From Pontiellaceae bacterium B1224 (GTDB lineage Bacteria; Verrucomicrobiota; Kiritimatiellia; Kiritimatiellales; Pontiellaceae), in assembly GCA_029432815.1 (NCBI GenBank), contig JAROBA010000040.1, forward strand, positions 1-49,416: a stretch of DNA of 49,416 nucleotides, written 5' to 3'. Both the position numbers and the translations under genes were made by a program. Under the pieces are notes generated by a model. The model searched no databases. It was not told the origin of the DNA and saw nothing but the letters and a program-made list of their open reading frames with translations. Shown here piece by piece: positions 4,472 through 21,666 of the stretch. Each line of letters begins with the position of its first letter. Position 1 is the stretch's first letter.

Positions 4472-4496
4472 ATCTCAATTTGTGATTCAGTGTTTG

Positions 4497-4524
4497 CGTG
4501 ACGATTGAGCCGTGAGGCGTGATT
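4497..4524. repeat. Left inverted repeat of the four-helix cassette
   Basis: The block TGAGGCGTGATT (4513-4524) with CGTGACG outside it (4497-4503) is the inverted partner of AATCACGCCTCA (4997-5008) and CGTCACG (5011-5017). The copies enclose only the four-helix-bundle gene. This copy covers the first bases of its stop codon. Confidence 0.7.
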
Positions 4525-4984
4525 AAAAGGGGATCTCTACATGCAGAATACCGTCTGTTCCGTATTCGGGGCTATCTTCATTTATCTTATATCCGCGTTG
4601 ATCGGGGACCATTTTAATAAGCAGGCGAATTATCTGGGTGGTGAATTCCATTCGGTGTTCTGCAACTTTTTCACCGAGCACATGACGGCCTTTGTAAAAC
4701 CAGCCACGACTTTCCCGGGCTGAGCCAAGGGCATATTCATAAAATCGGGCGCGGTCCTTTGAGCTTAGTTTCGAATAACCCTCTTCAATGTTAGCGCTCA
4801 TGGAGCCGACAGATCTGTAGAGCTGATCTGAAAGCGAGCGAGTGCAATGATCTTTGCAGAGTTTTTTCGCATCGTGCCAACTGATGTCAGCCAGGAATAA
4901 TGAAGGCCGAAAGGCTTCAACCGTCCAAAGCGAATCCATCCGGATAACGTTCGGAACACTCATTTCCCATTCTGCATATTTCAT
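4523..4984 (-). CDS. Four-helix bundle protein (S23/bIVP family)
   Basis: The start is ATG at 4984, preceded by GGAGG; the in-frame GTG at 5002 has no such site. The 153-residue product carries the family signature: SLSDQLYRSVGSMSANIEEGY, then RFYEYALGSARESRGW and a long C-terminal helix. The family includes proteins encoded by intervening sequences in 23S rRNA and is related to the Avd accessory protein of diversity-generating retroelements. The function is unknown in most cases. It sits alone between metH and the MTHFR fusion gene, framed by inverted repeats that overlap its stop codon and the metH stop codon. It therefore looks like a small mobile cassette rather than a methionine gene. 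Confidence 0.8.
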   Translation of the reverse strand: MKYAEWEMSVPNVIRMDSLWTVEAFRPSLFLADISWHDAKKLCKDHCTRSLSDQLYRSVGSMSANIEEGYSKLSSKDRARFYEYALGSARESRGWFYKGRHVLGEKVAEHRMEFTTQIIRLLIKMVPDQRGYKINEDSPEYGTDGILHVEIPF

Positions 4985-4996
4985 CGGGCTTCCTCC

Positions 4997-5017
4997 AATC
5001 ACGCCTCAAACGTCACG
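4997..5017. repeat. Right inverted repeat of the four-helix cassette
   Basis: AATCACGCCTCA then CGTCACG, inverted copy of 4497-4524. It lies directly upstream of the four-helix gene and abuts the metH stop codon (5020-5022). Confidence 0.7.
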
Positions 5018-5019
5018 TC

Positions 5020-8000
5020 TCAAGTATTATACCCAAGGTTCGGGGAGAGCCATTTTTCTGCCTCTTCAACGGACCACCCTTTGCGTTCCGCATAATCTGC
5101 GAGCTGGTCTTTGTTGATGCGGCCGAGCGGGAAGTAGCGCGATTCCGGGTGCGAGAAGTAGAGACCGGAGACGGAACTCGGCGGGGTCATTGCCATGCCT
5201 TCAGTCAGTTGAATGCCGGTGTGCTTCGTGGCTTCCAACAGTTGGAAAATCGTCCGTTTTTCGGTGTGGTCAGGGCAGGCGGGATAGCCAGCCGCCGGGC
5301 GGATGCCCTGATATTTTTCGTTGACCATTTCGTCCGGTGTCAGGTTTTCATCTTTGCCGAAGCCCCATTCATCGCGCACCTGTTTGTGCATATATTCCGC
5401 AAAAGCTTCCGCCAGGCGGTCGCCGAGCGACTGCACCATGATGGCGTTATAGTCATCCAGTTCGGCTTTATATTTATTCGCAATCTCCACCACCTGCGGA
5501 CCTGCGGTTACGGCGAATGCTCCGATGTAGTCGGCGCAGCTTTCTTCCTTCGGTGCAATAAAGTCCGCCAGGCTGCGGTTCGGGGTGTCGTCTTTCTTGA
5601 TCATCTGCTGACGCAGGAAGTGCAGCGTGTTGAGCTTTTCAGTGCGGGATTCATCGGTATAGACCTCAACGCTGTCGCCCACGCGGGCGGCCGGGAAGAA
5701 GGCGTGCACCCCTTTCGGCTCAAACCAGTTTTCGTCGACAATCTTTTTCAGCATCGCCTGTGCATCGTCGAACAGCTCGCGGGCGTGTTTGCCGGGCTCG
5801 CCCGGTTTTTCAAGAATGGAGGGATATTTACCTTCCAGCTCCCACGTCCAGAAGAACGGGGTCCAGTCGATGTAGGGCACAAGTTCCTTCACCGGGAGTT
5901 CCAGAGTCTGGATGCCGAGGGCGTCAGGAGTCGGCGGAATGTAGCCTTTCCAATCATTGGAAAGGGCGCTGTTCGCGCGCGCTTTTTCCAACGGTTGGAA
6001 CTCGCGGACTTCCTGAGACGCTTCGTGCTGCTCCCGAACCGCGTTATATTCAAATTTCACGGCGGCTCTGAATTTTTCATCGCCACTGAGAATCTGCTGC
6101 ACCACGGTTACGGCGCGGGACGCATCGAGCGAGTGCATCGCAAGACCGGAATATTCAGGCGCAATCTTTACGGCCGTATGTTTTTTACTGGTGGTGGCTC
6201 CTCCGACCAGCAGCGGAATGTCGAGGCCTTCGCGCTCCATCTCTTTGGCCACATGCACCATTTCGTCGAGCGACGGCGTAATCAGGCCGGAGAGGCCAAT
6301 GATGTCCGCGCCCCATTCCCTGGCTTCTTTGAGAATCGTGTCCCAGGGAACCATGACGCCGATGTCTTTGACCTCAAAGTTATTACAGGCGAGCACCACG
6401 CCGACAATGTTTTTGCCGATGTCATGCACATCGCCTTTCACCGTGGCCATCAGTATTTTCCCCGCGCTGGAGCTTGCACCCTCTTCTTTCTCTGCATCCA
6501 TGTAGGGAAGGAGATAGGCCACGGCCTTTTTCATGACACGCGCACTTTTCACCACCTGCGGCAGGAACATTCTTCCGGAGCCGAACAGATCGCCGACCAC
6601 GCCCATGCCGTCCATCAGCGGCCCTTCAATCACATGCAGCGGGCGGTCATATTTCTGGCGAGCTTCCTCGGTATCTTCATCGATGTAATCGACAATTCCT
6701 TTAACCAATGCGTGCTTGAGCCGCTCTTCAACCGACTCTTCGCGCCACGCCTGGGTTTCGACTTCCTTCTTGGCGGTGCCGCCTTCGGCTTTCACGCGCT
6801 CGGCAAATTCAATCAGGCGTTCTGTGGCATCTTCATCGCGATTCAGCATCACGTCTTCGACTGCTTTCATGAGATCCGGCGGAACTTCGTCGTACACTTC
6901 CAGCATACCGGCATTCACGATGGCCATATTCAGGCCGACTTCCATGCCGTGATAGAGGAAGGCCGCGTGAATGGCTTCGCGAACGCGGTTATTGCCGCGA
7001 AATGAGAATGACACATTACTGATGCCGCCGCTGACGGAGCAGCCGGGCAGGGTGTCGCGGATTACTTTGGTGGCTTCGAAGAAGGAGGTTGCATTAATTC
7101 GGTGCTCCTCCATGCCGGTTCCGATCGGGAATACATTCGGGTCGAAAATGATATCAGTTGGATCGATGCCCAATTCACCGACTAGAATATTGTAGGCACG
7201 AGTGCAGATATCGATGCGTCGCTCGGTGGTATCGGCCTGTCCTTTTTCGTCGAACGCCATCACGACCATGCCCGCACCGTAGCGCTGGATTTTGCGGGCG
7301 TGGGCACGGAAAGCGTCTTCACCTTCTTTCATGCTGATCGAATTGACAATCGCTTTGCCCTGCACGCATTTGAGTCCGGCTTCGATGACTTCCCATTTAG
7401 AGGAGTCGATCATGATCGGCACTTTGGAAATGTCCGGCTCGGATGCAACGAGGTTCAGAAACTTCACCATCATGGCTTCGGAGTCGATCAGCCCTTCATC
7501 CATGTTGATGTCGATAATGTTGGCGCCATTATCCACCTGCTGGCGGGCAATCTGCAGCGCAGCTTCCAGATCGCCTTCGCGGATCAGGCGGGCGAATTTC
7601 GGTGAGCCGGTAATGTTCGAGCGCTCGCCGACCATCACCAGATTCATTTCCAGAGTGATGCGCAGCGGTTCAAGTCCGCTGAAGCGCGGCGCGTTGTCGG
7701 GCTCAGGGGGGACGCGCGGGGAATACTTTCTAACCACATCGGCCATTGCCTGAATATGCGCCGGCGTGGTGCCGCAGCAGCCGCCCCAGATATTGGCGAG
7801 CTGGTGCTCGGCAAAATCGTTGTAGATTTTGCTCATGTCTTCGGGGGTATCGTCGTAGCCGCCAAACGCATTCGGCAGACCGGCGTTGGCGTAGATGGAG
7901 ATGTAGCACGGAGCCACTTCAGACAGCTCTTCCAGATAGGGGCGCATGTCGGCGGCACCGAGGGCACAGTTGAGGCCGACGGAGATCGGCTTGGCATGTT

Positions 8001-8730
8001 CAACACTGTACCAGAAAGCGGTCGGCGTCTGGCCGGAAAGGGTACGGCCGGAGCGGTCGGTGATGGTTACGGAGATCATGACCGGCAGGCGTTTTCCGGT
8101 TTTTTCGAAGACCTCTTCAATGGCATATATTGCGGCTTTCGCATTCAGGGTGTCGAAAATGGTTTCGACGAGCAGCACATCCACGCCGCCTTCAATCAGC
8201 GCTTCGGTTTGCTCCGAATAAGCAGCCACCAAATCGTCGTAGGTCACGGCTCGATAGCCCGGATCGTTCACGTCAGGTGAAATGGAGGCGGTGCGGTTGG
8301 TCGGGCCGATGGAACCGGCCACAAACAGGGTGCGCGAAGGATCTTTTTCCAGAACGCGATTAACGGCCTGGCGGGCCAGTTTGGCACCTTCGATGTTCAG
8401 TTCACGGACGAGCGGTTCCAGGCTGTAGTCGGCCTGCGAAATCGTGGTGGAACTGAAGGTGTTGGTTTCAATGATGTCTGCGCCGGCTTCGAGAAATTCG
8501 ACATGAATGTCTTCAATGATATCCGGCTTGGTGAGGATCAGCAGATCGTTGTTTCCTTTGAGGTCGGAAGGATGGGCGGCAAAGCGTTCGCCGCGGAAAT
8601 CGGCTTCCTCCAGTTTATGCTTCTGGATCATAGTGCCCATGGCGCCATCAAGCATCAGGGCGTTGGATTTCAACAGGGCGGCAAAATTGCGGCCGCCGGG
8701 TTCGGTATAGTTCAATTCTTTCTGATTCAT
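5020..8730 (-). CDS. metH: Cobalamin-dependent methionine synthase MetH
   Basis: The protein has 1236 residues, full length for MetH, with all four modules. The homocysteine barrel has zinc cysteines in GLNCALG (near 252) and GGCCGTTP (near 315). The pterin-binding barrel includes [14 protein letters not shown]-like sequence near 360. The cap and B12 domain carries [10 protein letters not shown] near 766, whose His ligates cobalt. The AdoMet reactivation domain carries [12 protein letters not shown] near 1143. It transfers the methyl group of methyl-THF to homocysteine in the cytoplasm. GAGGAT precedes the ATG. The MTHFR fusion downstream supplies its substrate. Three TTCCA-N5-TGGAA palindromes lie in the 3' third of the gene. 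No B12 riboswitch was recognised upstream. Confidence 0.97.
5233..5247. repeat. TTCCA-N5-TGGAA palindrome inside metH
   Basis: Core ACAGT. On the metH strand it encodes FQLLE, codon phase 0. Confidence 0.85.
5948..5962. repeat. TTCCA-N5-TGGAA palindrome inside metH
   Basis: Core ATCAT. It encodes SNDWK, codon phase 1, a different phase from its neighbour 24 bases away. Confidence 0.85.
5986..6000. repeat. TTCCA-N5-TGGAA palindrome inside metH
   Basis: Core ACGGT. It encodes FQPLE, codon phase 0. Confidence 0.85.
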
Positions 8731-9174: not shown

Positions 9175-9834
9175 TCACCGGTTTGGCCGGAAAAGACCGA
9201 TTTTGTATGCTTTGGCAACAGCGGCGGGCGCATTCTCCACCTGAAGCTTTTCGTAGATGCGGCGAATATAGGTGGCAACCGATCCGAAACTGATGTTCAG
9301 CTGATCCGCAATTTCTTTTTTAAGAAAACCTTCTCCGAGAAGTTTGAGTATTTCGAGTTCCCGGTCGGAGAGCGGATGGTCCGCCTGAACAGGCAGGGCT
9401 TTTTGCTGGAGTTTCTGCAGGATGAACTGAGCAACGCTCCCGTCGAGTGACGCCCCTCCCTGCATCACGGTTCGAATGGCTTCCTTGATCTGGGTGATGG
9501 TGGATTTTTTTAAAAGGTAGCCCGCTGCTCCGCGTTGTATGGCGGTCAGGACATCGGTTTCATGATTCGATTGTGTCAGGATAATAATCTTTGCTTCCGG
9601 AAGAAGCTCTGTGATCAGCGGCAGGGCCTCAAGACCGCTGATCCCGGGAAGGTTGAGGTCGAGCAGAATGAGGTCCGGATTGTTTTTGCCTTCTTTGATG
9701 TTTCGAAGTGCCACTTCAGCTGCGCCGAACAGCGAGCCGAGAAACATGTCTTCCTCTTTTTCCAGGGCCATTTCAATGACCTTGCGATATTTCGGGTGAT
9801 CCTCGATCAGCATGATCCGTGTCTTGGCGTTCAT
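9175..9834 (-). CDS. NarL/LuxR-family response regulator
   Basis: The 219-residue protein has a receiver domain with acidic pocket ED (11-12) and phospho-acceptor Asp59 in LILLDLNLPG. A LuxR-type helix-turn-helix near 150-210 includes LSDRELEILKLLGEG and KKEIADQLNIS. The ATG at 9834 overlaps the kinase stop codon as ATGA, so the two are translationally coupled. An earlier in-frame ATG at 9891 lies inside the kinase gene. It probably activates the divergent carbohydrate genes starting at 12034, which is inferred from adjacency and from both lying between the dinB-derived repeats. Confidence 0.9.
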   Translation of the reverse strand: MNAKTRIMLIEDHPKYRKVIEMALEKEEDMFLGSLFGAAEVALRNIKEGKNNPDLILLDLNLPGISGLEALPLITELLPEAKIIILTQSNHETDVLTAIQRGAAGYLLKKSTITQIKEAIRTVMQGGASLDGSVAQFILQKLQQKALPVQADHPLSDRELEILKLLGEGFLKKEIADQLNISFGSVATYIRRIYEKLQVENAPAAVAKAYKIGLFRPNR

Positions 9835-11819
9835 GTTTTTTTCCTGGTTGAAAATATTCTGTTTCCGGTTGCCAGCGTCAGCACAATACACGTTCCGCCT
9901 GCGCTTACATTTTCTACTGCCACTTTTGCCCCCATGAGCCGAGCCCGGCGTTGCAGTGATTTAGGAACCGCTTGCGAGGCAATGTCCGGCAGTCCGTGGC
10001 CATTATCAATGAGCGTTAACTGGATTCGTTTTGCTGAGGCATGCAGGGTCGTGCTGAGTTTTGAAGCTTCGGCATGGCGGCAGATATTGATGAGTGCTTC
10101 TTTATAGAAAAGGAATAGGTCCGAACGGACCAGGGGTTTCAGCTTGGCAAGATGTTCCACGCCCTCGATTGAAAAATCGTGCTCCAGCTGAACCACAATG
10201 CGCTCGGCCGCCTGCTGCATGGTCTTGCCCAGATCGAGTTTAAGTGCGTTGGTATGCAGGTGGGCGCATTCCCGTACCGCCTCTCCGGTTTCTTCGGTGG
10301 TGGTGCGTATCTGGCTCAGGAGTCGGGACAATTCCTTTGGATCGTTGCCGGTCTCGCCGGCAAGATCACTCAAAAGCCCGATGGTGTGCAGATCGGCTCC
10401 GAGCTCATCGTGGAGGTCGGCGGCGAAGCGCTCCTGCATATTGGATTTCTGGCGCATGCGAACCATGCGTCCCACCAGCATGGAGATCACAATGCCAACA
10501 CCCAGGGCAGCGGCCAGCCAGATCAAAAGTCTCAGAGTGACTTTCTGTTTTGCGTAACGGAGGTTCAATTCTGTCTCAACAAATGGGCGTAAGGCTTTCA
10601 GATCGTGCCGGCGCGACAGCTGATTCATCCACTCCCGCTGCGGGAGGATTTCTCCATAATAATTTACGCCGTCGGTTATGCGGATCAGGCAACCCTGTTG
10701 ATGTTTCAGGCTTGGGCTGACGGAGATCGGCGCATGGCGTGCAACATTCCTGCCGTCGGATATCACTTCGATTTCAGAAAAAGAGATTACGGGCCGGTCG
10801 ATTGCAAAGGGGAGAACTGAGGTGTGGTCAACGATTTCAATTCCGATGTAACGACACCGTATTTCCGGGAAGTTTCGCATGATGATCGGGCCGGTGTCAT
10901 GAACGGTTTTAAGCCGGTATTCACACAAGTCCCTTGTATCAGAAAAGTCCGGACGGTTGGCTCCGGTAACACGCACATAACGGGGTACGGCCCAGCTGCT
11001 TGGGCTTTGTTTCGGTATTGCGTAGGAAAGATCCGCCGAATGAAAATTAATCTGACTGATTGGATAGGGCGATTTGAGATCAAGGGTTAACTTCGGCAGC
11101 GGGTCATTGTCGGTGACGTGCAGCAGCAGGCTTTTACTGGGGGCTCCATGGGCGGCATCCAATATGTAGGGCGTGAACCCGTCCACCAGGAACCTGGGCT
11201 CAAGCGAACCGTCGCGCGCCGGCGTGTTGGTCGGTACGGTCACAGGTTTGTGCAGGGCCACATTCTCCGTTCCGCTGAACACCATGATCTCAGAAAGCTG
11301 CAGGAAATATTGTTTGCCCCGTAGCCGCGGAGTGAGCGCGGTGGCTTCGATCCTGATCCACGATGCGCGGAGGGGAGGGAAGGATACCGTTAATGGTGCC
11401 ACTCGGGCCGTTTGATCTTCATTTGCCGAGACCACGGCCACTTCATTCGTGTTTAGGCCGGTCCCCGCGAAAATGCGAAATTCCTGGGGGAAACCCTCTG
11501 CCTCTACGCCCGCATGCGGTTCACGATACAGCACCGGTGCCAGGACCACTGCATCAATAACCGTCTCTTCCCCCAGCTCGATGCGGATCCATTCCTTTTT
11601 GTCGGGAGACTTGTGTATGCTGGATCGGTAGCCGAGGGAGCCCACATCCCGGCGCAGGGTCAGGCTGGCGAGGGTTTTAAGTTCGCGGTCGATGTCATTC
11701 AGCTTTTGTTCCAGTTCGGACAGCTTCAGTTCTGTCAGATTTACAGGATCATTTTGCGCTGCGCTGATCAGCGGAAGCAGTCCTGCGAGTATGATGGACG
11801 GAATGTAAAAGCGATTCAT
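9831..11819 (-). CDS. NarX-type sensor histidine kinase with large extracytoplasmic sensor
   Basis: The start is taken at ATG 11819, which opens a signal peptide ending LISAAQN; the ATG at 11855 would add 12 residues before it. The 662-residue protein has a large exported region (25-415) of beta-rich repeats resembling discoidin-type galactose-binding domains, with WIRIELGEETVIDAVVLAP and NVALHKPVTV. One membrane helix follows near 420-440. The HisKA_3 box RFAADLHDELGADLHTIGLL has its His near 467. The HATPase domain has an NICRHAEASKL N-box and DNGHGLPDI. Discoidin-like folds often bind glycans, so it may sense the polysaccharide or its fragments. It is divergent from the lyase/hydrolase genes and coupled to the regulator downstream. 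Confidence 0.85.
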   Translation of the reverse strand: MNRFYIPSIILAGLLPLISAAQNDPVNLTELKLSELEQKLNDIDRELKTLASLTLRRDVGSLGYRSSIHKSPDKKEWIRIELGEETVIDAVVLAPVLYREPHAGVEAEGFPQEFRIFAGTGLNTNEVAVVSANEDQTARVAPLTVSFPPLRASWIRIEATALTPRLRGKQYFLQLSEIMVFSGTENVALHKPVTVPTNTPARDGSLEPRFLVDGFTPYILDAAHGAPSKSLLLHVTDNDPLPKLTLDLKSPYPISQINFHSADLSYAIPKQSPSSWAVPRYVRVTGANRPDFSDTRDLCEYRLKTVHDTGPIIMRNFPEIRCRYIGIEIVDHTSVLPFAIDRPVISFSEIEVISDGRNVARHAPISVSPSLKHQQGCLIRITDGVNYYGEILPQREWMNQLSRRHDLKALRPFVETELNLRYAKQKVTLRLLIWLAAALGVGIVISMLVGRMVRMRQKSNMQERFAADLHDELGADLHTIGLLSDLAGETGNDPKELSRLLSQIRTTTEETGEAVRECAHLHTNALKLDLGKTMQQAAERIVVQLEHDFSIEGVEHLAKLKPLVRSDLFLFYKEALINICRHAEASKLSTTLHASAKRIQLTLIDNGHGLPDIASQAVPKSLQRRARLMGAKVAVENVSAGGTCIVLTLATGNRIFSTRKKT

Positions 11820-12033
11820 AAAAACATATGTATCAGGAAAAAAACAAAACGCCAAGTCAGCGGCCTGACTTGCCTGTCGACCGTTTAGTGGACATGACAG
11901 ATTTCTGTACGGGGCGTAACTTATTTCGTGTTAATGGGTAATCGGTCGGAAAGGCAGACAGCCCGTTGCAGTCATTCGATCCTGAACGGTTGGGGTCTGG
12001 CTTGTAAACAAGAGCGAAAGCAGGAGATAGAAG

Positions 12034-14028
12034 ATGAGAAAGAGCAGAACTGTTACGTCATTTATAGCCGGTGTATTCCTCGCCGGTGCATCGCAGGCCG
12101 CGCTGGTCGGTGAATGGAGGTTTGAGGGCGGGTCCGCGGATGATACCAGTGGCAACGGCTATAACGGAACCATTGTGGGATCGGTTGAAAGTGTTAGTGG
12201 GGTCGAAGCCGACACATCCGCGCTGGAGTTTGGTGCAACATCCGGCTGGGTGAGCATTCCGATGGAGGCATTTTCCGGCATTTCGAATGAAATGACTATT
12301 GCAATGTGGACCTTCGGTGATGCGGATATACTCGGTGATGGTTCAACCCCAAATAGTGCTTTCGGTTCAAATAACCGAAATATGCTGCATTCGCATACGC
12401 CGTGGCACAATGGAAATATGTATTGGGACGCCGGCACGGTCCGGAGTAGCTACAACATAGGGGATTCATCGAAGTACAAAGGTAAATGGAACCATATGGT
12501 CTTTGTTATTAACGCAACAACCGGCGAAAAAAAGGTGTACATCAACGGGGTGCAGGACAGTCCAACATGGAGCGGTTCTTTTGCCCCGATTTCCGGTATA
12601 ACCGCTTTTGCCATCGGGGCGAATAATCTCAGCGGCGCCACTCACTATTATGGGAAGATTGACGAGTTCCAGCTGTATGACCATGAACTTTCCGCGACGG
12701 AAGTCTCGAACCTGTATGCCCGTGTCGAGGTGGATTTTATCACGGCCGTGGCGACCGCAACGCCGGATAACGGTGCCCCGCCGCTCGAAGTTGCCTTCGA
12801 TGGTTCCGGCAGTGATGCCAGTGCGGCTATCATTTCATACAGCTGGGATTTCGGCGATGGAAGCAGCGACACAGGTTTGATGGTTACCAACACATATGCC
12901 TCTTCCGGCGAATACACGGCTACGCTTATTATTGAGGACGATACCGGAAGGTTCGCGACCAACACGGTAGACGTTTCCGTCGATCATTACCTGACGGCCG
13001 CCGTCTCCGCAACACCGATGGTTGGATCCCCCCCGCTGGAGGTCGCGTTTGATGCATCCTCCAGCACGTCGAGCACCTCCATTGTTTCCTACAACTGGGA
13101 TTTCGGAGATGGCAACCTGGACAGCGGAATGATGGTTACCAATATCTATACAGACGTGGGGGTGTATACGGCTGCTGTTGTTGTGGCTGATTCCCACGGG
13201 CTGTTGGATACCAATGCGGTGGTGATCACTGTGCAGAACTATGTTGGCACAGAGATCGTCGCGACGGAGGAAAAGTTTGACTCCACAAACTATCCGTCAT
13301 TCTACACCAACGATCTGCTTCAGACAGAGTTCCTGTCCAGCTCAGCTTCCGGCCCCGAAGCGATGGGTACCGCGCGTCATGTGGAGATGTTCAACGGCAC
13401 CATTGGCGACGAAAACACCGGAACAGGCGATACCGACGGTGTCAGGGCGCTCATCGGCAGCACGTTCACGGTCATCTTCGACACTTCAGTGAATGTGAAT
13501 GGTTATGACATCACTGAGATCTCATCGATTGCGGGATGGAATCCAGCTGGCGGCGGTCGGGCCAACCAGGGCTATGGCATCGAAGTAACCTATGTGGATG
13601 ATACCACCGCAGTGCTGGCGGATCCGACCCATTGGGCACCAAATGATCCCTCCAGTTACTGGACCAAGGCGACGCTCGTTGAAACCAACGGCCTGGCCCT
13701 GGCGAAGAATGTGAAATCCATTACGTTCACCATCTCGGAAAATGCCGCAACCGCAGGCGGTGTCGTGATCTACCGCGAATTCGACGTTCTGGGCACGCCG
13801 ACTGCCGGGGCACCCTCGGAAATCGTGATTGAGTACAACGACGATCTGGCAGAGCTTTCGTGGGCAACAGACAGCTCATTCTATGAATACAGCATCCAGA
13901 GTAACCTGAATCTGGGCTTCGGCACCTGGGGAACCTTCATGACCGTGGAAGGAACACCTCCGGAAACAAGAGTGGTTCTTCCGGCGAAAACCGAAAATCA
14001 GCAGTTTATTCGTGTGATTGTTGAGTAG
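12034..14028 (+). CDS. Secreted LamG-PKD-PKD protein with a C-terminal conserved module
   Basis: The 664-residue protein has a signal peptide (cleavage near ASQA-ALVG). A LamG/concanavalin-like domain spans 25-230, with LVGEWRFEGG, WNHMVFVIN and YYGKIDEFQLYDHELSATEV. Two PKD domains lie near 235-316 and 317-400, each with SYxWDFGDG. A ~185-residue module (404-590) is shared with the lyase gene downstream. A short tail resembles a cell-surface sorting or stalk domain. AGGAG precedes the ATG. No catalytic residues were recognised, so it is probably a surface glycan-binding protein. It leads the plus-strand island genes and is divergent from the sensor kinase. Confidence 0.8.
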   Translation: MRKSRTVTSFIAGVFLAGASQAALVGEWRFEGGSADDTSGNGYNGTIVGSVESVSGVEADTSALEFGATSGWVSIPMEAFSGISNEMTIAMWTFGDADILGDGSTPNSAFGSNNRNMLHSHTPWHNGNMYWDAGTVRSSYNIGDSSKYKGKWNHMVFVINATTGEKKVYINGVQDSPTWSGSFAPISGITAFAIGANNLSGATHYYGKIDEFQLYDHELSATEVSNLYARVEVDFITAVATATPDNGAPPLEVAFDGSGSDASAAIISYSWDFGDGSSDTGLMVTNTYASSGEYTATLIIEDDTGRFATNTVDVSVDHYLTAAVSATPMVGSPPLEVAFDASSSTSSTSIVSYNWDFGDGNLDSGMMVTNIYTDVGVYTAAVVVADSHGLLDTNAVVITVQNYVGTEIVATEEKFDSTNYPSFYTNDLLQTEFLSSSASGPEAMGTARHVEMFNGTIGDENTGTGDTDGVRALIGSTFTVIFDTSVNVNGYDITEISSIAGWNPAGGGRANQGYGIEVTYVDDTTAVLADPTHWAPNDPSSYWTKATLVETNGLALAKNVKSITFTISENAATAGGVVIYREFDVLGTPTAGAPSEIVIEYNDDLAELSWATDSSFYEYSIQSNLNLGFGTWGTFMTVEGTPPETRVVLPAKTENQQFIRVIVE

Positions 14029-14830: not shown

Positions 14831-14851
14831 TTCATATGATATGATGTGTTG

Positions 14852-14887
14852 AAAACACTGCGCTGCTGGTTTGGCGCAGTGTTTTTT
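14852..14887 (+). terminator. Rho-independent terminator after the PEP-CTERM gene
   Basis: AAAACACTGCGC, a 10-base loop, GCGCAGTGTTTTTT. Confidence 0.85.
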
Positions 14888-14943: not shown

Positions 14944-17900
14944 ATGCAGAAACTGAAACACCTGAGAGCCGGAGTTATGGGAGCGGCTCTACTGCTGGGC
15001 GGCCTGGTCTGCGCCGATGATATCCATTATACCGGTGTGTCCGGAGGAGAGTGGGTGACCGGCGCAAACTGGAGCAGCGGGACGTATCCCGCGATCACCG
15101 ATATTGCTTATCTCGACACCACCGCCAACCTCAGCGTGAAGTCGCCGAACAATATTCAGGGTATTCGTGTTGGAACGAGCGCTGATGGCCGGCTTCAGAT
15201 CGGCAGTCAGGCTTCGCTGACTGCGAATACGAGTTCTACGGTGACGAGCATCATCGGGGATGGAAGCGGGCATACAGGATCCGTCCTGCAGGAGGGCGGC
15301 ACTGTCGAAATCAACCGGCTCACCATCGGCAGCAATTCCGGTTCGGGGATCTATCACATTCACAGCGGCACCTTGTCGATCACTCGCGAGAGCGGAGGCA
15401 ACTCGCTCTTCCTCGCCACCAGCGGATCCGGCGAGGGGACGTTCCGCATCAGCAGCGGCAGCTTTGTTGCCCGGGCGGGGGTCCAGCTTGGCTCAGCTTC
15501 GGGCGGCATGGGACGTTTCGAGGTGATCGGGTCGCACCCGGGCGCCATCGGAATTGGTTCAACCGGCACGCTCGACGGGCGCTGGATACAATATGCCGGG
15601 TCCACCCTCAGCGTGCGCATCGACAAAACCGCGCAGGGCATCACCCCGATCTTTATCGACGAAACCGGGGGCGATGGCGGGGGCGACGTCGTCTTCGAAA
15701 ACGGCGCTCTCCTTGACGTTGATTTTACCGCCGCGTTCCTGAATGGCGGCACCTTCACGGTGATGGAGTGGGAAGGTGATGTGACCGATAAAGGGCTCCG
15801 GTTCGCGTCTTCGGTCGATACCCATATCTGGAGTTTCAAGGTTGATGTGGCCAATAAGCGGCTCACTGTTACTGCCGTCGGCAGTCCGGCCAGCCGGGCG
15901 TTCGTTCATCCGGGCCTTTCGCATAAGCGGTCCGACCTTGACCGGATGCGCGACATGGTTGCGGCCGGCGTTGAACCCTATGCCAGTACATTTGCCGCCT
16001 TTGCATCAAATGGAAAGTCTCAGCACACCTACCAGCCAAGTACGACGGCAGAAGAGCTGGAAGCGGACGGCGGAACCGCCAATAATAATGCCCTGCGGAA
16101 CGATGGTGTTGCGGCCTATTATAACGCCCTGATGTGGTATATCACCGGAGATGAGCGGCATGCCGAGGCCGCCATCCGTATCTTCACGGTGTGGTCTGGC
16201 GTAACCAATATTAGCGGCATTCCTCTGAACGCCGGTCGTCACTGGCGTTTGATCGAAGCGGCGGAAATTATCAAGAGCACCTACGACGGTTGGGAACCAT
16301 CCGACCTGCAGGCCTTTAAGGATATGCTGGTGTATCCGGGGTACTCAAATGCCAGCGAGCCCGGCGGAAACCGGAGTATTTATTGGAGAGCTTATCAGGG
16401 AGACCCGGCCCGGCACGGAAATCAGGGCCTTTTTGCTATGCGCTGCGTGATGGCCATCGGTGTCTTTCTCGACAACGAAATCATCTATGATCGCGCCCTT
16501 CGCTACCTGCAGGGAGCGCCCGCCCGACGCGATGATATTCCCTATGTAAGCGGACCCTCCGTTGCTGAAACACAGATCGGAACCTATGAGCACTTCCTTG
16601 AATTCAGCCGCACCGGGCAGGAGAGTACGATTGCGGACTATGGCTACAACGAAGTGATCCATAACTATATTTACCCTAATGGCCAGTCGCAGGAATTTTC
16701 CCGGGACATGGCGCATGGGTTGGCGGGAATCGGCATTATTGCCACCATGTCTGAAATGGCCTGGAGTCAGGGGGATGACCTCTATGGACACCTGAACAAC
16801 CGTCCGCTCCTGGGGCTCGAATACTACTACCGGTACAACCTGAGTTACGAACGCTCCTTCCCGGATCAAACGACCTCATGGGAGCCGACGGTGGAAAACG
16901 GAGAATTCATTCAGCGGCTCGATCAGTCCGGGCGTTGGTTCTCGCTCAAGGCCAATCCCTATCTGGCTCAGAATACGGATCCGGAAGACTGGCACCGGGG
17001 AAGAACCAGCCTCATTCAGGCTCCCATGTATGAAATGAATCTGGCTCATTACCGCGATCGGATGGGTGTGTTATCGGAAGACACCAAATGGCTGCAGCGC
17101 GGCCACAACCTGCTGGTCAGCGAACTCGGTTTTGAAGGAGAGGGAACGCCCTGGGACCACCCCTCGTGGGGCGGACTGACCTTCCATCGCGTCAGCCCCG
17201 GTGATCCCGTTGAAGGTTTCACCAATGGCGTTCCGATGTTTGAAATGAACGTGTTGCCGGCGACTATCGGGGCCGAGAACTATGATTACTTTGCCCTTGG
17301 TGGAGAAGGGCGTACCTACCACGATCTTTCAATCGGAAATTCCGCTGGCGAGTACCGCCGGGGAGAAGGCGTGGATATCACAGCCTCTTCCGAGGGGGAG
17401 TATGCACTGACCGGTTTGGAAGACGGTGAATGGCTCACCTACACGGTGTCGGTTCCGACCAACGGGCCGTATGATATTTCCATTCGTTGCAATGCTTCCA
17501 GCGCAGGCGGCAGTATCCAGTTTAGTTTTGACGGGGTGGATCGAACCGGTGCGGTGACCGTCCCGGTCGGAAACGGTTGGCAGGATGTTGTCATAGCCGA
17601 AGGCGTTGCACTCTCCGGCGGGGTGCAGCAAATGAAAGTCAGCTTCTCCGGTATGCCGGATGTATTTGAGCTCAGCTCCATTTCCATCGAAGGCCCTTTT
17701 TTGCCGTACGTGGTTTCAACAACAAAAAGCGATACGGCTCCGGAAATGAGTGATAGCGATCTGGCACAGACCCAATATTTCAGCAGTTCAGCCACCGGCG
17801 GTGAAGCCGTCGCCACGCGTCATGCGGAGTTATTCAATGGTGTGATTGGCGACAATGACAGCGGAACCGGTGATTCAGGAGTGGTACGGATGAACAGCGA

Positions 17901-18489
17901 CAACACCGTATCCGTGACCTTTGACACATCAGTCCATACCAACGGATACGATTTGACCGGCATCACAACCTGTTTCGGGTGGAATCCGGCAAGTGGAGGT
18001 CGTTCCAATCAGGGGTATGAACTGATCCTGACTTATATGGACGGTTCGACGGCAACGCTGGCCGGGCCGGCGCACTGGGAGCCCAACAGCCCGGCGTCGT
18101 ACTGGACGACGGTAACGTTCACCAATGCGCCGGGGCGTCTGCTGGCATCGGGCATCAAGGCAGTGACATGGGACATCACACAGGATGCCAATGCAAGTGG
18201 TGTTTTGATTGCCCGTGAATTCGACGTTTTCGGCACACCGACGCTGAATGCTGAAGATTATATCGCAGCGTTTTCCAGGGGCAACCTCAGCTTTTCCAAT
18301 GGTTACCTTAATGCGCAATTTTCCGCCATCGTTGGTGCGGATTACCGGGCGGAATGGAAAGAGAGTCTTATGAGTTCCAATGGTTGGATGACCGTCACAA
18401 ATTTCCAGCCCTTGGAAAACTCGCCGTTTTTGTTGAGCGTCCCCGCAACGAATGGAGCGGCATTTTTTCGGGTGCTTTGGTTGCCGTAA
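14944..18489 (+). CDS. Large secreted polysaccharide lyase (alginate-lyase-type domain) with CBM6
   Basis: The 1181-residue protein has a signal peptide (to about 21) and a beta-helix/autotransporter-like repeat region (22-315). An alpha-barrel alginate-lyase-family domain follows (about 318-760), with HGNQG (491-495) and SRDMAHGLAGIG (586 on), the motif that marks this family. Then come a CBM6-like domain (787-915: GEYRRGEGVDI, GEWLTYTVSVP), a ~180-residue module shared with the 12034 gene (922-1101), and a short tail ending FFRV. Related lyases cleave uronic-acid-containing chains by beta-elimination (PL5/PL38-like). Substrate cannot be read from sequence. GGAAAG precedes the ATG. Next to GH117 and sulfatase genes it probably acts on a sulfated algal polymer. 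Confidence 0.75.
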   Translation: MQKLKHLRAGVMGAALLLGGLVCADDIHYTGVSGGEWVTGANWSSGTYPAITDIAYLDTTANLSVKSPNNIQGIRVGTSADGRLQIGSQASLTANTSSTVTSIIGDGSGHTGSVLQEGGTVEINRLTIGSNSGSGIYHIHSGTLSITRESGGNSLFLATSGSGEGTFRISSGSFVARAGVQLGSASGGMGRFEVIGSHPGAIGIGSTGTLDGRWIQYAGSTLSVRIDKTAQGITPIFIDETGGDGGGDVVFENGALLDVDFTAAFLNGGTFTVMEWEGDVTDKGLRFASSVDTHIWSFKVDVANKRLTVTAVGSPASRAFVHPGLSHKRSDLDRMRDMVAAGVEPYASTFAAFASNGKSQHTYQPSTTAEELEADGGTANNNALRNDGVAAYYNALMWYITGDERHAEAAIRIFTVWSGVTNISGIPLNAGRHWRLIEAAEIIKSTYDGWEPSDLQAFKDMLVYPGYSNASEPGGNRSIYWRAYQGDPARHGNQGLFAMRCVMAIGVFLDNEIIYDRALRYLQGAPARRDDIPYVSGPSVAETQIGTYEHFLEFSRTGQESTIADYGYNEVIHNYIYPNGQSQEFSRDMAHGLAGIGIIATMSEMAWSQGDDLYGHLNNRPLLGLEYYYRYNLSYERSFPDQTTSWEPTVENGEFIQRLDQSGRWFSLKANPYLAQNTDPEDWHRGRTSLIQAPMYEMNLAHYRDRMGVLSEDTKWLQRGHNLLVSELGFEGEGTPWDHPSWGGLTFHRVSPGDPVEGFTNGVPMFEMNVLPATIGAENYDYFALGGEGRTYHDLSIGNSAGEYRRGEGVDITASSEGEYALTGLEDGEWLTYTVSVPTNGPYDISIRCNASSAGGSIQFSFDGVDRTGAVTVPVGNGWQDVVIAEGVALSGGVQQMKVSFSGMPDVFELSSISIEGPFLPYVVSTTKSDTAPEMSDSDLAQTQYFSSSATGGEAVATRHAELFNGVIGDNDSGTGDSGVVRMNSDNTVSVTFDTSVHTNGYDLTGITTCFGWNPASGGRSNQGYELILTYMDGSTATLAGPAHWEPNSPASYWTTVTFTNAPGRLLASGIKAVTWDITQDANASGVLIAREFDVFGTPTLNAEDYIAAFSRGNLSFSNGYLNAQFSAIVGADYRAEWKESLMSSNGWMTVTNFQPLENSPFLLSVPATNGAAFFRVLWLP
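18403..18417. repeat. TTCCA-N5-TGGAA palindrome inside the lyase gene
   Basis: Core GCCCT, encoding FQPLE in phase 0. A one-mismatch copy lies at 18375-18389. This is the only strict copy among the island's coding genes. Confidence 0.8.
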
Positions 18490-18559
18490 TGGAATGCGTT
18501 TGGTGCATACGGTCGTGGTTGGCGGGATGTAGTTATTATTGAAAAAAAGGAATGTGAAT

Positions 18560-20128
18560 ATGAAACAGGTTATGGTGGCAGTCGGAATGGCTGGGCTGAT
18601 GTCGGCAAACGGATCCGCCTCGGCGAATGAAAGCTGGACGATTGGAACGCAGGAGGAGTGGACGGCGAACTCCGCGAAACAGACCCATCTTGAAATCAAA
18701 GAGGGCAAAGCTTCTCCGACAGGTGCCGAGGCCTCAGTCTCCAGCATCATGAAACGCTTTCCGGAGAAACGTTCCATGGCGTCTTTTACGATTTCCCAGT
18801 CGCCGGACTGGCTGAACTGGAAGCCCGTGCCGAACGTCGGTCCTGCAGGGCTGGGGGATGCTCCGGTGGCCCTGCAACTGGGCGACGGTGACTACTGGAT
18901 GTTTGGGCGCTTTAAGGCAGCAAAGACGAAGGAGGTGCGCGAATTTGCAGGCAACGCTGTAACGCTGGACGGGTTTGATATTCCGCTGAAAACGACTCCG
19001 TTTCCCAATGTCTATAATGCGCCGGGTGGATTAAAGAAAAGTGCCGGCGGCTATCATGTCTGGCAGAGTAAAGATATGGTGAACTGGGTGCACCATGGAT
19101 CGGTTACTAAAGGGGCCTCCGCCTGGGTGACGACCGCGGAGGTGGCCGATGGAAAATTCTACATCTATTATGATTTTCCGAATGATCAGGACCCGCATCT
19201 CTTCATTGATGAAGATCTGACCGACGGCGTTCCCGGGAAGGATATGGGAATGGCTTTTAACGATCCAACGCATGGATCCGACTGCGTTTTTATCCGAGAC
19301 CTAGACGGGAACTTTCACGTGATTGCGGAAGATTGGAGTCCGATTAATGCGCAGACCCATGCCTGGGATTCTCCGCTGGCGATTCATGCGGTCAGTCCGG
19401 ACGGCATTAATGATTTTAAGATTCTGGAGCAGCCGCCGGTGGATGAGCGGACGACGCCGACGGGGAAATTTGCGGAATATTATCATCCGCACTGGCATGC
19501 GGCTGATCCCGAGAAGTATCCGGGAGTACCGGTTCCGTTTGATATTCCGAAGAACCGCATTAAAAAAGGAGATATTCGTGCGGTCGGTCGATATGAAATT
19601 CATGAGCCTGAGCAGAATGCCTATGGCGACTGGGCGGCGATCTGCATTGGCGGGCAGTATTATCTTTTCGGCGACTTCGATCGTGCGGGATCCAATAACG
19701 ATCACGGTGCAATGAGTGTGGCCTGGTTTACGTCCGACGACATCAACGCACCCTTTACGTTCTGCGGCAGCATTGGCAAAGGACACCCCGATCCTGAAAT
19801 TCTTTTTGCCGAGGGGCAGTTCTATCTGCTGACTCAGACGAAGAGCGACTATATCAGTCCCGGCCCATGGGTGGATGGCGTTGAGGTGCGCGTTGGAGTG
19901 GACACATCCAATGATGGGAAAGTGGATCAGTGGTCTGATTGGAAGACAGTTTCTGAGCAATATGACTACATCGAGGGTTTCTCCAAGCAGATTGCTAAAA
20001 TACCGGCGCAGATGGATCTTTCGGGGCTGCCTGAAGGATATGGTTTTCAGTTTGAGATTAGGCTGAGCGATGCCACTGATAACGAAGCCAAACCGATCAT
20101 CGATGCGGTTTCTGTAACGTTTAATTAA
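18560..20128 (+). CDS. GH117-family glycoside hydrolase (neoagaro-/anhydrogalactosidase type)
   Basis: The start is ATG 18560, preceded by AAGGAA, opening a signal peptide ending GSASA; an in-frame TTG at 18539 is less likely. The 522-residue product is a single beta-propeller enzyme. It has the long conserved stretches typical of GH117: SPDWLNWKPVPNVGPA, YDFPNDQDPHL, HGSDCVFIRD (238 on), EDWSPINAQTHAWDSPL (near 258), NAYGDWAAICIGGQYYLFGD, and GHPDPEILFAEGQFY (near 407). Known GH117 enzymes remove terminal 3,6-anhydro-galactose from agar or carrageenan oligosaccharides by an exo mechanism. The signal peptide suggests a periplasmic or outer location. It is followed 17 bases later by the sulfatase, so they are probably co-transcribed. 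Confidence 0.8.
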   Translation: MKQVMVAVGMAGLMSANGSASANESWTIGTQEEWTANSAKQTHLEIKEGKASPTGAEASVSSIMKRFPEKRSMASFTISQSPDWLNWKPVPNVGPAGLGDAPVALQLGDGDYWMFGRFKAAKTKEVREFAGNAVTLDGFDIPLKTTPFPNVYNAPGGLKKSAGGYHVWQSKDMVNWVHHGSVTKGASAWVTTAEVADGKFYIYYDFPNDQDPHLFIDEDLTDGVPGKDMGMAFNDPTHGSDCVFIRDLDGNFHVIAEDWSPINAQTHAWDSPLAIHAVSPDGINDFKILEQPPVDERTTPTGKFAEYYHPHWHAADPEKYPGVPVPFDIPKNRIKKGDIRAVGRYEIHEPEQNAYGDWAAICIGGQYYLFGDFDRAGSNNDHGAMSVAWFTSDDINAPFTFCGSIGKGHPDPEILFAEGQFYLLTQTKSDYISPGPWVDGVEVRVGVDTSNDGKVDQWSDWKTVSEQYDYIEGFSKQIAKIPAQMDLSGLPEGYGFQFEIRLSDATDNEAKPIIDAVSVTFN

Positions 20129-20145
20129 AGTTGATAGGTAAAGTG

Positions 20146-21666
20146 ATGAAGAACTTCTTTTTTATGTTGATCGCGGGATTATTGCTTTCTGCAGGTTCTG
20201 CGATTGCGGAACGGGCCAGACCCAACATTATCTTCCTGATGACGGATGATCAGCGGTGGAATAATTTCGGTTGCTACGGGAATCCTGAATTTAAGACGCA
20301 TAACATCGACCGGTTGGCGGAGCAGGGGGTGATCTTCGATAAGGCCTATTATGCGGTGGCCATCTGTAAGCCCAGCCGGGTGACGATGCTGACGGGACGT
20401 TACTTTGCGAATCATCGTGTGGGATTCTCGCCGCCGTTTGACTACTCCCTTTCTCAGGCGGGACTGGCCGACAGTTATCCCGCTCAGCTCAAGGAGGTAG
20501 GTTACCGCACCGGCTTTATTGGAAAAGTAGGTTTTACGGTTACCGAAGAGGCCATACGCCCGGGGGAGACCAAGAACTATGACCTCGAAAAATACTTCAA
20601 AACCACCTTCGACTTTTTTGTGGGTGACGGTACGCATACGGGTGGGGCGTCAAAAATGTGGCCTGCGGATGATCCGGGCTTGAGTGAGATCTATCGGAAA
20701 GACCGTAAGAACACCACCCGGACCCTCCGAAACGGTGAAGCCATCCTGCGTTTTCTTGATACACAGCCTAAGGACCGGCCCTTCTGCCTTTCGGTTAGTT
20801 TTCTTGCAACGAAACATGATAGTGATTCGCATGTCTACATGCCGCATTACGAGCTTTTTAAAGACGTTGAGTTCGAGGCTCCGGATAACTGGGTGGAGGG
20901 TGCAAACGAGGGGCTGCCTCAGGTGGTGAAAGATCATGCCCGTGGATTCCGGCTTCATCTGCAGCGTACATCCACTCGTGAACTCTTCCTGCGGCAGGTG
21001 CGTCGTTTTGCAACACAGGGGTATACCGTTGATCAGCAAGTGGGCCTGATGATGGATAAACTCAAGCAGATGGGCATGTTGGATAACACGATTATAATTT
21101 ATACCAGCGACAATGGGCGCTTTCAGGGATCACATGGTCTGTACGACAAGTGTATTCTCTATGAGGACTCTATTAAACAGCCGTTGATTGTTTATGACGG
21201 CCGTGTTCCGGAAGACCGTCGTGGGCGTCGTGAAGATGCACTGGTTTCATCGGTTGATATTGCACCGACGATTCTTTCGATGGCCGGTGTAAAGGCGCCG
21301 GAGAGTATGCAGGGGCTCGATTTGTGCGGAATCCTGAACCAGACGCAGGATCGGTCTCAGTGGCGGGATGCGGTCTTAATGGAGAATCTTTTTATTGCAT
21401 CGATGCACGGAGCGCGAAACAAGCCGGATGCGATTGAGCGAAATGAAAAAATGGTTGCAGCAAACAAGTCGTATCGGACGCGCGGTGTGCGCACCGACCG
21501 CTACAAATATTTCATCTATTACGAGCATAATCCGCCGATCGAAGAGCTCTACGATCTGGACAAAGATCCGCTCGAACAGAACAACCTGGTGAACAATCCG
21601 GAATACGCGGAGCAATTGAAAAAATTGCGCAAGCGCACCGAAGAACTGTATCAGGCCGTGCGGTAG
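20146..21666 (+). CDS. Secreted type I (formylglycine) sulfatase
   Basis: The 506-residue protein starts at ATG 20146 with a signal peptide ending GSAIA. The sulfatase signature is CKPSRVTMLTGRY. Cys74 would be turned into formylglycine by FGE-type activation and Arg78 is conserved. Metal ligands lie in NIIFLMTDDQRW (near 30) and IIYTSDNGRFQGSHG. The C-terminal region ends with the usual YDLDKDPLEQNNL motif. This is family S1 of sulfatases; the subfamily was not determined. It removes sulfate esters from the glycan acted on by the GH117 and lyase neighbours. It is the last gene of the island, ending 30 bases before the right direct repeat. Confidence 0.92.
   Translation: MKNFFFMLIAGLLLSAGSAIAERARPNIIFLMTDDQRWNNFGCYGNPEFKTHNIDRLAEQGVIFDKAYYAVAICKPSRVTMLTGRYFANHRVGFSPPFDYSLSQAGLADSYPAQLKEVGYRTGFIGKVGFTVTEEAIRPGETKNYDLEKYFKTTFDFFVGDGTHTGGASKMWPADDPGLSEIYRKDRKNTTRTLRNGEAILRFLDTQPKDRPFCLSVSFLATKHDSDSHVYMPHYELFKDVEFEAPDNWVEGANEGLPQVVKDHARGFRLHLQRTSTRELFLRQVRRFATQGYTVDQQVGLMMDKLKQMGMLDNTIIIYTSDNGRFQGSHGLYDKCILYEDSIKQPLIVYDGRVPEDRRGRREDALVSSVDIAPTILSMAGVKAPESMQGLDLCGILNQTQDRSQWRDAVLMENLFIASMHGARNKPDAIERNEKMVAANKSYRTRGVRTDRYKYFIYYEHNPPIEELYDLDKDPLEQNNLVNNPEYAEQLKKLRKRTEELYQAVR

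Follow-up and report, generated by a model that had tools for sequence, protein, structure and literature searches.

A lyase-propeller-sulfatase gene unit of a Pontiellaceae bacterium and its possible role in the degradation of a fucose-rich sulfated polysaccharide

What polysaccharide could be the target of a gene set that joins an alginate-lyase-like enzyme with a five-bladed propeller protein and a sulfatase? This question is raised by positions 14944-21666 of a 49,416-nucleotide stretch of DNA (hereafter, the window) from Pontiellaceae bacterium B1224 (GenBank assembly GCA_029432815.1, contig JAROBA010000040.1), where three consecutive open reading frames (ORFs) of the plus strand encode these proteins (Table 1), as placed in the preliminary description of this DNA. 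The reading that we favour, and to which we give roughly an even chance, is that the three genes form a transcription unit within a two-component-regulated set for the degradation of a fucose-rich sulfated polysaccharide with glucuronate, of brown-algal or diatom type, that is, sulfated fucoglucuronomannan or a close relative. Of the mixed sulfated uronate polymer that the preliminary description proposed, a fucoglucuronomannan type is thus kept whereas the galactan type is abandoned.

The company of the lyase

Evidence for this reading comes from the company that the lyase family keeps. One family of beta-helix neighbours in the lyase loci (family 7) is FdlA, as indicated by the match of L047:18102-19511 to the fucoidan lyase 7xzf over nearly the whole length (E = 7.3e-149). 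FdlA has been reported to cleave sulfated fucoglucuronomannan between D-mannose and D-glucuronate (PMC9410043). Among the 30 strong relatives of the lyase, found in 11 genomes (E < 1e-100; one of the 30 is partial, and weaker and short relatives were dropped), 12 have an FdlA-like gene no more than 10 kb away, compared to 1.0 expected under uniform placement, with the distance counts taking every FdlA match up to E = 0.001, strong and weak, and some pieces joined. Because such genes cluster, sulfatases are a better yardstick than uniform placement: of the 100 sulfatases in the host genome, 13 have an FdlA-like gene at that distance or nearer (Fisher p = 0.002 in comparison with the 12/30 lyases of all genomes combined), and within the host genome alone 3 of the 6 lyases do. 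The same association is seen at the level of whole genomes, 26 in number: FdlA-like genes (E < 1e-70) are present in 9/9 genomes with a strong lyase and in 1/17 genomes without one, the loosest cut-off (E = 0.001) giving a match in 15/26. Further neighbours of the lyases are GH95, GH141-like and sulfatase genes. The host genome itself contains 14 FdlA-like matches (contigs C22, C33, C111, C122, C127, C157 and C160), several of these in long ORFs with other modules.

Several observations weigh against this reading and have to be faced before it is carried further. No FdlA-like gene is found within 10 kb of 18 of the 30 lyases, or on the 11.7-kb contig of the closest lyase relative outside Pontiellaceae (Verrucomicrobiota JB025, 83% identity); furthermore, neither the genome test nor the linkage test takes phylogeny into account, and the E-value cut-offs were chosen after the lists had been seen. 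The propeller family is much wider than FdlA, being widespread in Planctomycetes and freshwater metagenome-assembled genomes, and only 4 of 42 propeller relatives (0.71 expected) have an FdlA-like gene nearby. The Pfam name of the lyase (PF05426) and its fold, with Z of about 20-25 to many alginate and glycosaminoglycan (GAG) lyases, suit other uronates equally well, and a tandem GH117 protein encoded after one lyase paralogue leaves a galactan-type substrate open for some members of the family. The adjacent sensor kinase says little on the substrate because its paralogues are numerous, about 15 in the host, and are also found beside other lyase and propeller loci; since 9 of these 15 have a sulfatase gene at most 10 kb away, in a genome rich in sulfatases, linkage to the kinase was dropped as evidence. 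Finally, the 49-kb contig of the window itself has no FdlA-like gene, so that three indirect links between the unit and FdlA become important: the sharing of a module, synteny, and the orthologues of the sulfatase.

The first link is the C-terminal accessory module of the lyase, possibly a sugar-binding one, which is shared with homologues of FdlA. It is 64% identical in a 1283-residue ORF on contig C160 of the host genome (G000), where an FdlA-like domain is also present, and 65% identical in a 1244-residue ORF of the same make-up in a related genome (G317, contig C144), where the make-up of both ORFs is deduced from place, strand and open-frame length. The second link is a syntenic locus of Pontiellaceae B12219 (L015/L179) with the gene order kinase, LamG-PKD protein, PEP-CTERM-like protein, beta-helix protein of the GH141-like cluster, propeller protein, two sulfatases and FdlA-like gene. 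Identity to the window amounts to 57% over 270 residues for the kinase, 70% for the propeller protein and 68% for the second sulfatase; the PEP-CTERM-like protein, of 212 residues, is 49% identical over 68, which are the last 68 of its 211-residue counterpart, and the last 258 residues of the beta-helix protein match the end of the window lyase at 56% identity. The third link comes from the orthologues of the sulfatase, 16 in the 29 genomes searched: a propeller relative is located at most 10 kb away from 6 of them, compared to 0.11 expected, and an FdlA-like gene from 5, compared to 0.4 expected; in genome G147 (locus L177), the sulfatase, the propeller protein and the FdlA-like gene all fall inside 7 kb. 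The cluster in that locus (L177:3760-12548) also includes a BD-FAE-type esterase beside the sulfatase orthologue, propeller relative and FdlA-like gene, and is preceded by a 699-residue ORF with a match to an ORF of the propeller cluster in locus L048.

So could the three genes be merely co-located, with the lyase acting on one polymer and the propeller-sulfatase pair on another? A conserved lyase-propeller pair was considered and rejected: a lyase of the same cluster occurs in 0/80 propeller loci (here and below, the best 80 of 210 propeller relatives), and tblastn yields only a relative with 27.6% identity in L048. Thus, the pairing appears to be local, which also counts against the favoured reading, and the taxon ranges of the two families differ. 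The gaps between the genes, in contrast, are a mere 49 bases from lyase to propeller gene and 2 bases from propeller gene to sulfatase, and because a strong terminator-like hairpin directly precedes the first gene, the three probably make up one transcription unit. Moreover, the syntenic locus again combines the C-terminal module of the lyase with the propeller-sulfatase pair, and both the lyase and the propeller types are present on contig C22. On balance, we consider mere co-location quite unlikely. A promoter scan was uninformative, with 6 promoters found and 8.5 expected from shuffled sequence.

The lyase: a common predicted fold and a possibly new family

The lyase was initially described as an alginate-lyase-type enzyme with a CBM6, and this is borne out by matches to two Pfam families, Alginate_lyase at 31 bits (cut-off 22.2) and CBM_6 at 56 bits (cut-off 28.9), as well as by the predicted lyase-type (alpha/alpha) toroid of the catalytic part. 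The beta-helix region that the preliminary description assigned to the lyase was not confirmed: the N-terminal module in question (residues 25-312) matches no Pfam family. It recurs in the lyase paralogues at 52-80% identity, and in other ORFs at lower identity. In VIA comparisons, the toroid matches PL5 (4f10, Z 25.1), PL17 (4ok2, 24.8), PL38 (3nnb, 24.2), the chondroitinase 9o3q (22.5) and PL39 (6jp4, 21.3), with about 22.4 for the GAG lyases 8khw/9o3q and 20.6 over 311 aligned residues for the PL40 ulvan lyase 9vtk. The predicted fold is, accordingly, the one common to PL5, PL17, PL38, PL39, PL40 and GAG lyases, and since it is shared by so many uronate lyases, it names no family. When the PDB was searched with a profile of the lyase, only PL38 (3nfv) surfaced, with E = 0.007, so that, by sequence, the lyase does not clearly join any characterised family.

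Nor does the lyase appear to be another FdlA. Both are presumed to be beta-eliminating uronate lyases, but no homology between them was seen: FdlA, from Flavobacterium sp. SA-0082, is a right-handed beta-helix (PMC9410043), whereas a toroid is predicted for the catalytic part of the window lyase, and the PDB search gave no match to FdlA up to E = 1. FdlA adjoins many relatives of the lyase, and the C-terminal module is common to the lyase and to homologues of FdlA, yet the two catalytic domains appear to be unrelated.

Could the enzyme then be an alginate lyase of the ordinary kind, from the PL5/PL17/PL38 group, with the sulfatase and propeller protein as unrelated passengers? The Pfam match and the fold (Z 22-25 to the PL17 enzymes 7bjt and 4ok2, the PL38 enzymes 3nnb and 8bdq, and the PL5 enzyme 4f10, PF05426 being common to them as well) are compatible with this possibility, as is the annotation of a plasmid-borne relative (31% identity) as 'alginate lyase family protein'. 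The identity to these enzymes is only 9-15%, however, and the putative active site differs. A histidine next to the neutralising asparagine has been described as a conserved mark of alginate lyases (PMC12088678). In the window lyase, Asn171 (numbering of the catalytic construct), which we equate with the neutralising asparagine by motif position, is invariant in 21/21 relatives and is followed by Gln in 17 and by Trp in 4, so that Asn-Gln stands where the alginate lyases have Asn-His. R265, H269, Y253 and H380 are likewise invariant in the 21 relatives; H269 is located, by spacing, near the usual place of the catalytic tyrosine, with Y253 nearby. Furthermore, a sulfatase gene is part of the three-gene unit and of many lyase loci, and two cultured species of Pontiella, neither shown to be the host, are reported not to use alginate (PMC7356697). 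We therefore regard alginate as an improbable target. A second, different PF05426 protein (L121:5361-8852, L117:552-4055), which carries an NPCBM domain, is encoded immediately ahead of the lyase paralogue on contig C33 and about 7 kb from another on C22; on C111, a relative of this protein is found one gene away from the lyase paralogue.

Ulvan, a GAG or a bacterial sulfated GAG-like exopolymer has to be considered as well, given the fold matches to the PL40 enzyme 9vtk and to the GAG lyases 8khw/9o3q and the best PDB match of the sulfatase, 6hr5, and also because sulfated GAG-like exopolymers are reportedly produced by Pontiella species (PMC7356697). The company of FdlA, GH95 and GH141-like genes is consistent and points elsewhere, and the host genome has one strong match of the GH88/GH105 type, on another contig; this class of target appears unlikely to us. 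Among the openly accessible papers found, none describes a lyase of this kind, as judged by title. The suggestion in the preliminary description that the lyase might have a new substrate survives, given that the lyase is not clearly placed in a characterised family and that its relatives keep company with FdlA-type fucoidan lyases, GH95, GH141-like proteins and sulfatases.

The propeller protein and the sulfatase

The second protein of the unit was initially labelled GH117-like, and here the label did not survive. The AlphaFold2 model, made with 46 relatives (pLDDT 90.8), does include a five-bladed propeller, at about residues 95-446 (18821-19876), with about 65 additional, strand-rich residues at the N-terminus and about 80 additional residues at the C-terminus. 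This fold is common to GH43, GH32, GH62 and other families, GH117 included. Foldseek puts GH43 and GH32 enzymes in the lead, with the GH117 structure 5ta7 at rank 41 (E = 1.2e-7); the top VIA match is GH43 4nov (Z 19.8, root mean square deviation 3.8, 239 aligned residues), and the lack of GH117 among the 50 VIA matches listed excludes nothing. The Pfam GH43 profile (PF04616) gives a marginal 32.4 bits, with the cut-off at 32.2.

The profile of 46 sequences (41 from the 80 loci that were fetched and 5 further ones, with L069 excluded on account of a stop codon) retrieved no GH117, GH43 or other propeller enzyme from the PDB up to E = 10; the only two matches were partner-of-inscuteable proteins with E above 1, which look like chance, and searches with the single protein and with five sequences returned nothing. 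As a positive control, an Arenibacter gene located beside a propeller relative (L016:11786-12823) matches eight GH117 chains with E from 4.8e-43 to 8.2e-24 (we take 4u6b, 4u6d and 3r4y to be GH117). In hhalign comparisons, the propeller family aligns with 12 GH117 proteins at a probability of 7.3% and with GH43 proteins of the host genome at 89.7% over 45 columns, compared to 96.8% for GH117 against the same GH43 proteins. Given the profile without a GH117 match, the working control and the low hhalign probability, membership of GH117 was rejected. In the fifth blade, GH117 has a Gly-His-Glu motif, the His-Glu pair of which we assume to have an active-site role (H264 is invariant in alignment A5), whereas the propeller protein has G-H-P-D-P, as placed by eye; H416, P417, D418 and P419 are invariant in 46/46 sequences. 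Candidates for a GH43-type triad, by motif position, are D107 (42/46), D248 (46/46), E356 (35/46) and E358 (40/46). Thus, compared to GH117 (4ak5, 3r4y, 3p2n, 5ta7), the blades are alike without detectable sequence relation, and compared to GH43 (4nov, 3qee), the best fold match, there is the marginal Pfam score and no GH43 chain retrieved by the profile. By its predicted model, the protein belongs among the five-bladed propellers of the broad GH43/GH117 type.

The family is found in Bacteroidota, Verrucomicrobiota, Planctomycetota, Kiritimatiellota and Lentisphaerota, with at least 210 relatives, as counted in a scan of GTDB genomes; tblastn against plasmids gave no match. Its characteristic neighbour is a sulfatase: an ORF of the sulfatase cluster lies within 500 bases in 45/80 loci, and among the 37 loci with full 10-kb flanks there is a sulfatase in 34, a GH141-like beta-helix protein in 11, GH117 in 10 and GH95 in 6. 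This sulfatase cluster (cluster 0) was built from 243 ORFs by single-linkage BLAST clustering; only 123 of them show the strict [CS]x[PAS]SR motif, many ORFs are truncated at the ends of loci, and the pattern is blind to other sulfatase variants. The GH141-like family is tied to GH141 through PDB matches to 9rx2 (E = 2.6e-31) and 5mqp (BT_1002, E = 4.1e-27), the latter presumably a GH141 enzyme. Endo-fucanase activity is known for some enzymes of GH141 (PMC12786026).

True GH117 enzymes, therefore, adjoin the propeller family, in 10/80 loci, without being members of it. They belong to the wider neighbourhood, as is also seen on contig C66 of the host genome (L122:9878-17784), where a lyase paralogue of 61% identity is followed immediately by a 1135-residue protein with two GH117 repeats, three further GH117 genes lying about 28-38 kb beyond, amid sulfatases. 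These observations give some substance to a red-algal mixed galactan as the target, with the propeller protein as a GH117-type anhydro-galactosidase and the lyase cutting uronate-substituted agar or carrageenan, and Pontiella agarivorans indeed grows on agar and carrageenan, with statements on fucoidan that conflict within the paper (PMC10880615). The propeller protein itself, however, is outside GH117 by sequence, and 70/80 loci (27/37 of the fully flanked ones) have no GH117 neighbour. Furthermore, P. desulfatans and P. sulfatireligans are reported to use several fucoidans and kappa-carrageenan, and not agar or alginate, despite their GH117 genes (PMC7356697). A polymer combining anhydro-galactose with uronate, the other option of the preliminary description, rested on GH117 and falls with it, a propeller enzyme outside GH117 being an outcome that the description itself had named as refuting; we consider such a galactan very improbable.

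The sulfatase matches PF00884 with 148.5 bits, its CKPSR sequence conforming to the C-x-P-S-R site that, together with PF00884, it shares with S1 sulfatases such as 6hr5 and 7lha. The former, titled rhamnosidase/sulfatase, is the best PDB match (E = 6.7e-55). The single sulfatase that was initially noted holds for the three-gene unit and not for the host, the 5.38-Mb genome of which (G000) yields 100 sulfatase matches above the cut-off.

A possible scheme of degradation and the surrounding genes

How might the unit work on sulfated fucoglucuronomannan or a close relative of it? The secreted lyase would bind the polymer via the CBM6 and the C-terminal module, and its toroid would cut uronate linkages by beta-elimination, alongside beta-helix lyases of the FdlA type or in their place. 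Sulfate esters would be taken off by the sulfatase, and the propeller protein, as a putative exo-enzyme of the GH43/GH117 type, would then split the glycosidic bond of a terminal sugar of the trimmed oligosaccharide. The adjoining kinase might regulate the set.

Searches of the PDB, Pfam and NCBIfam revealed no close characterised relative of either the lyase or the propeller protein, and both are candidates for new families of carbohydrate-active enzymes (CAZymes). A bolder version, which we deem rather unlikely, holds that the unit joins two unnamed CAZyme families: a toroid lyase that is a second, fold-unrelated cutter of sulfated fucoglucuronomannan beside FdlA, possibly with histidine in place of the catalytic tyrosine, and a propeller glycosidase that, as the partner of a dedicated sulfatase, removes the unsaturated or desulfated product end in place of GH88/GH105. 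The notion that the host has no unsaturated-uronyl hydrolase is unsupported, there being one strong GH88 match on contig C132. Fucose-rich sulfated polysaccharides are considered to be degraded slowly and to be a possible carbon sink (PMC12786026, PMC8857213), and among the papers found, FdlA is the only structurally studied lyase for the uronate-bearing type. If the favoured reading is true, a second type of lyase and a sulfatase-linked propeller family represented in Bacteroidota, Verrucomicrobiota, Planctomycetota and Kiritimatiellota would become two testable enzymes. A GH43/GH117-like fold label by itself, as this case illustrates, misleads on the substrate.

Table 1. Features of the three-gene unit and its surroundings, in window positions
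Feature	Positions	Strand	Basis or remark
Multidomain lyase, secreted, 1181 residues	14944..18489	+	ORF; Pfam Alginate_lyase and CBM_6; predicted toroid fold of catalytic part
Lyase N-terminal module, residues 25-312	15016..15879	+	no Pfam match
Lyase catalytic (alpha/alpha) toroid, residues 323-759	15910..17220	+	AlphaFold2 pLDDT 88.1, pTM 0.91
CBM6 of lyase, residues 801-915	17344..17688	+	PF03422 56 bits; PDB 5la2/2y8k 1.3e-15
Lyase C-terminal accessory module, residues 933-1107	17740..18264	+	recurs in other ORFs
Five-bladed propeller protein, secreted, hydrolase candidate, 529 residues	18539..20128	+	outside GH117 by sequence
S1-type sulfatase with C-x-P-S-R site, 511 residues	20131..21666	+	Pfam, motif, PDB
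Strong terminator-like hairpin between the unit and the upstream ORF	14851..14886	+	15 pairs and T-rich tail; pattern match only
PEP-CTERM-like small secreted protein, 211 residues	14195..14830	+	NCBIfam TIGR02595 16.5 bits, cut-off 16
LamG-PKD-PKD protein, secreted	12034..14028	+	shares accessory module of lyase; counterpart in syntenic locus L179
Sensor histidine kinase with F5/8 type C domain	9831..11855	-	divergent from LamG-PKD-PKD and PEP-CTERM-like ORFs
Response regulator, receiver and LuxR-type helix-turn-helix	9175..9891	-	divergent side, beside kinase

Upstream of the unit, part of the LamG-PKD-PKD protein is 53% identical to the C-terminal module of the lyase. For the small protein that follows it, the Pfam PEP-CTERM score (PF07589) is under the cut-off. 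The accessory module is also found a few kb from kinase paralogues on contigs C204 (in two places) and C129 of the host genome. Further away in the window (2636-8730), a fused homocysteine methyltransferase/methylenetetrahydrofolate reductase is encoded beside a full-length B12-dependent methionine synthase on the same strand.

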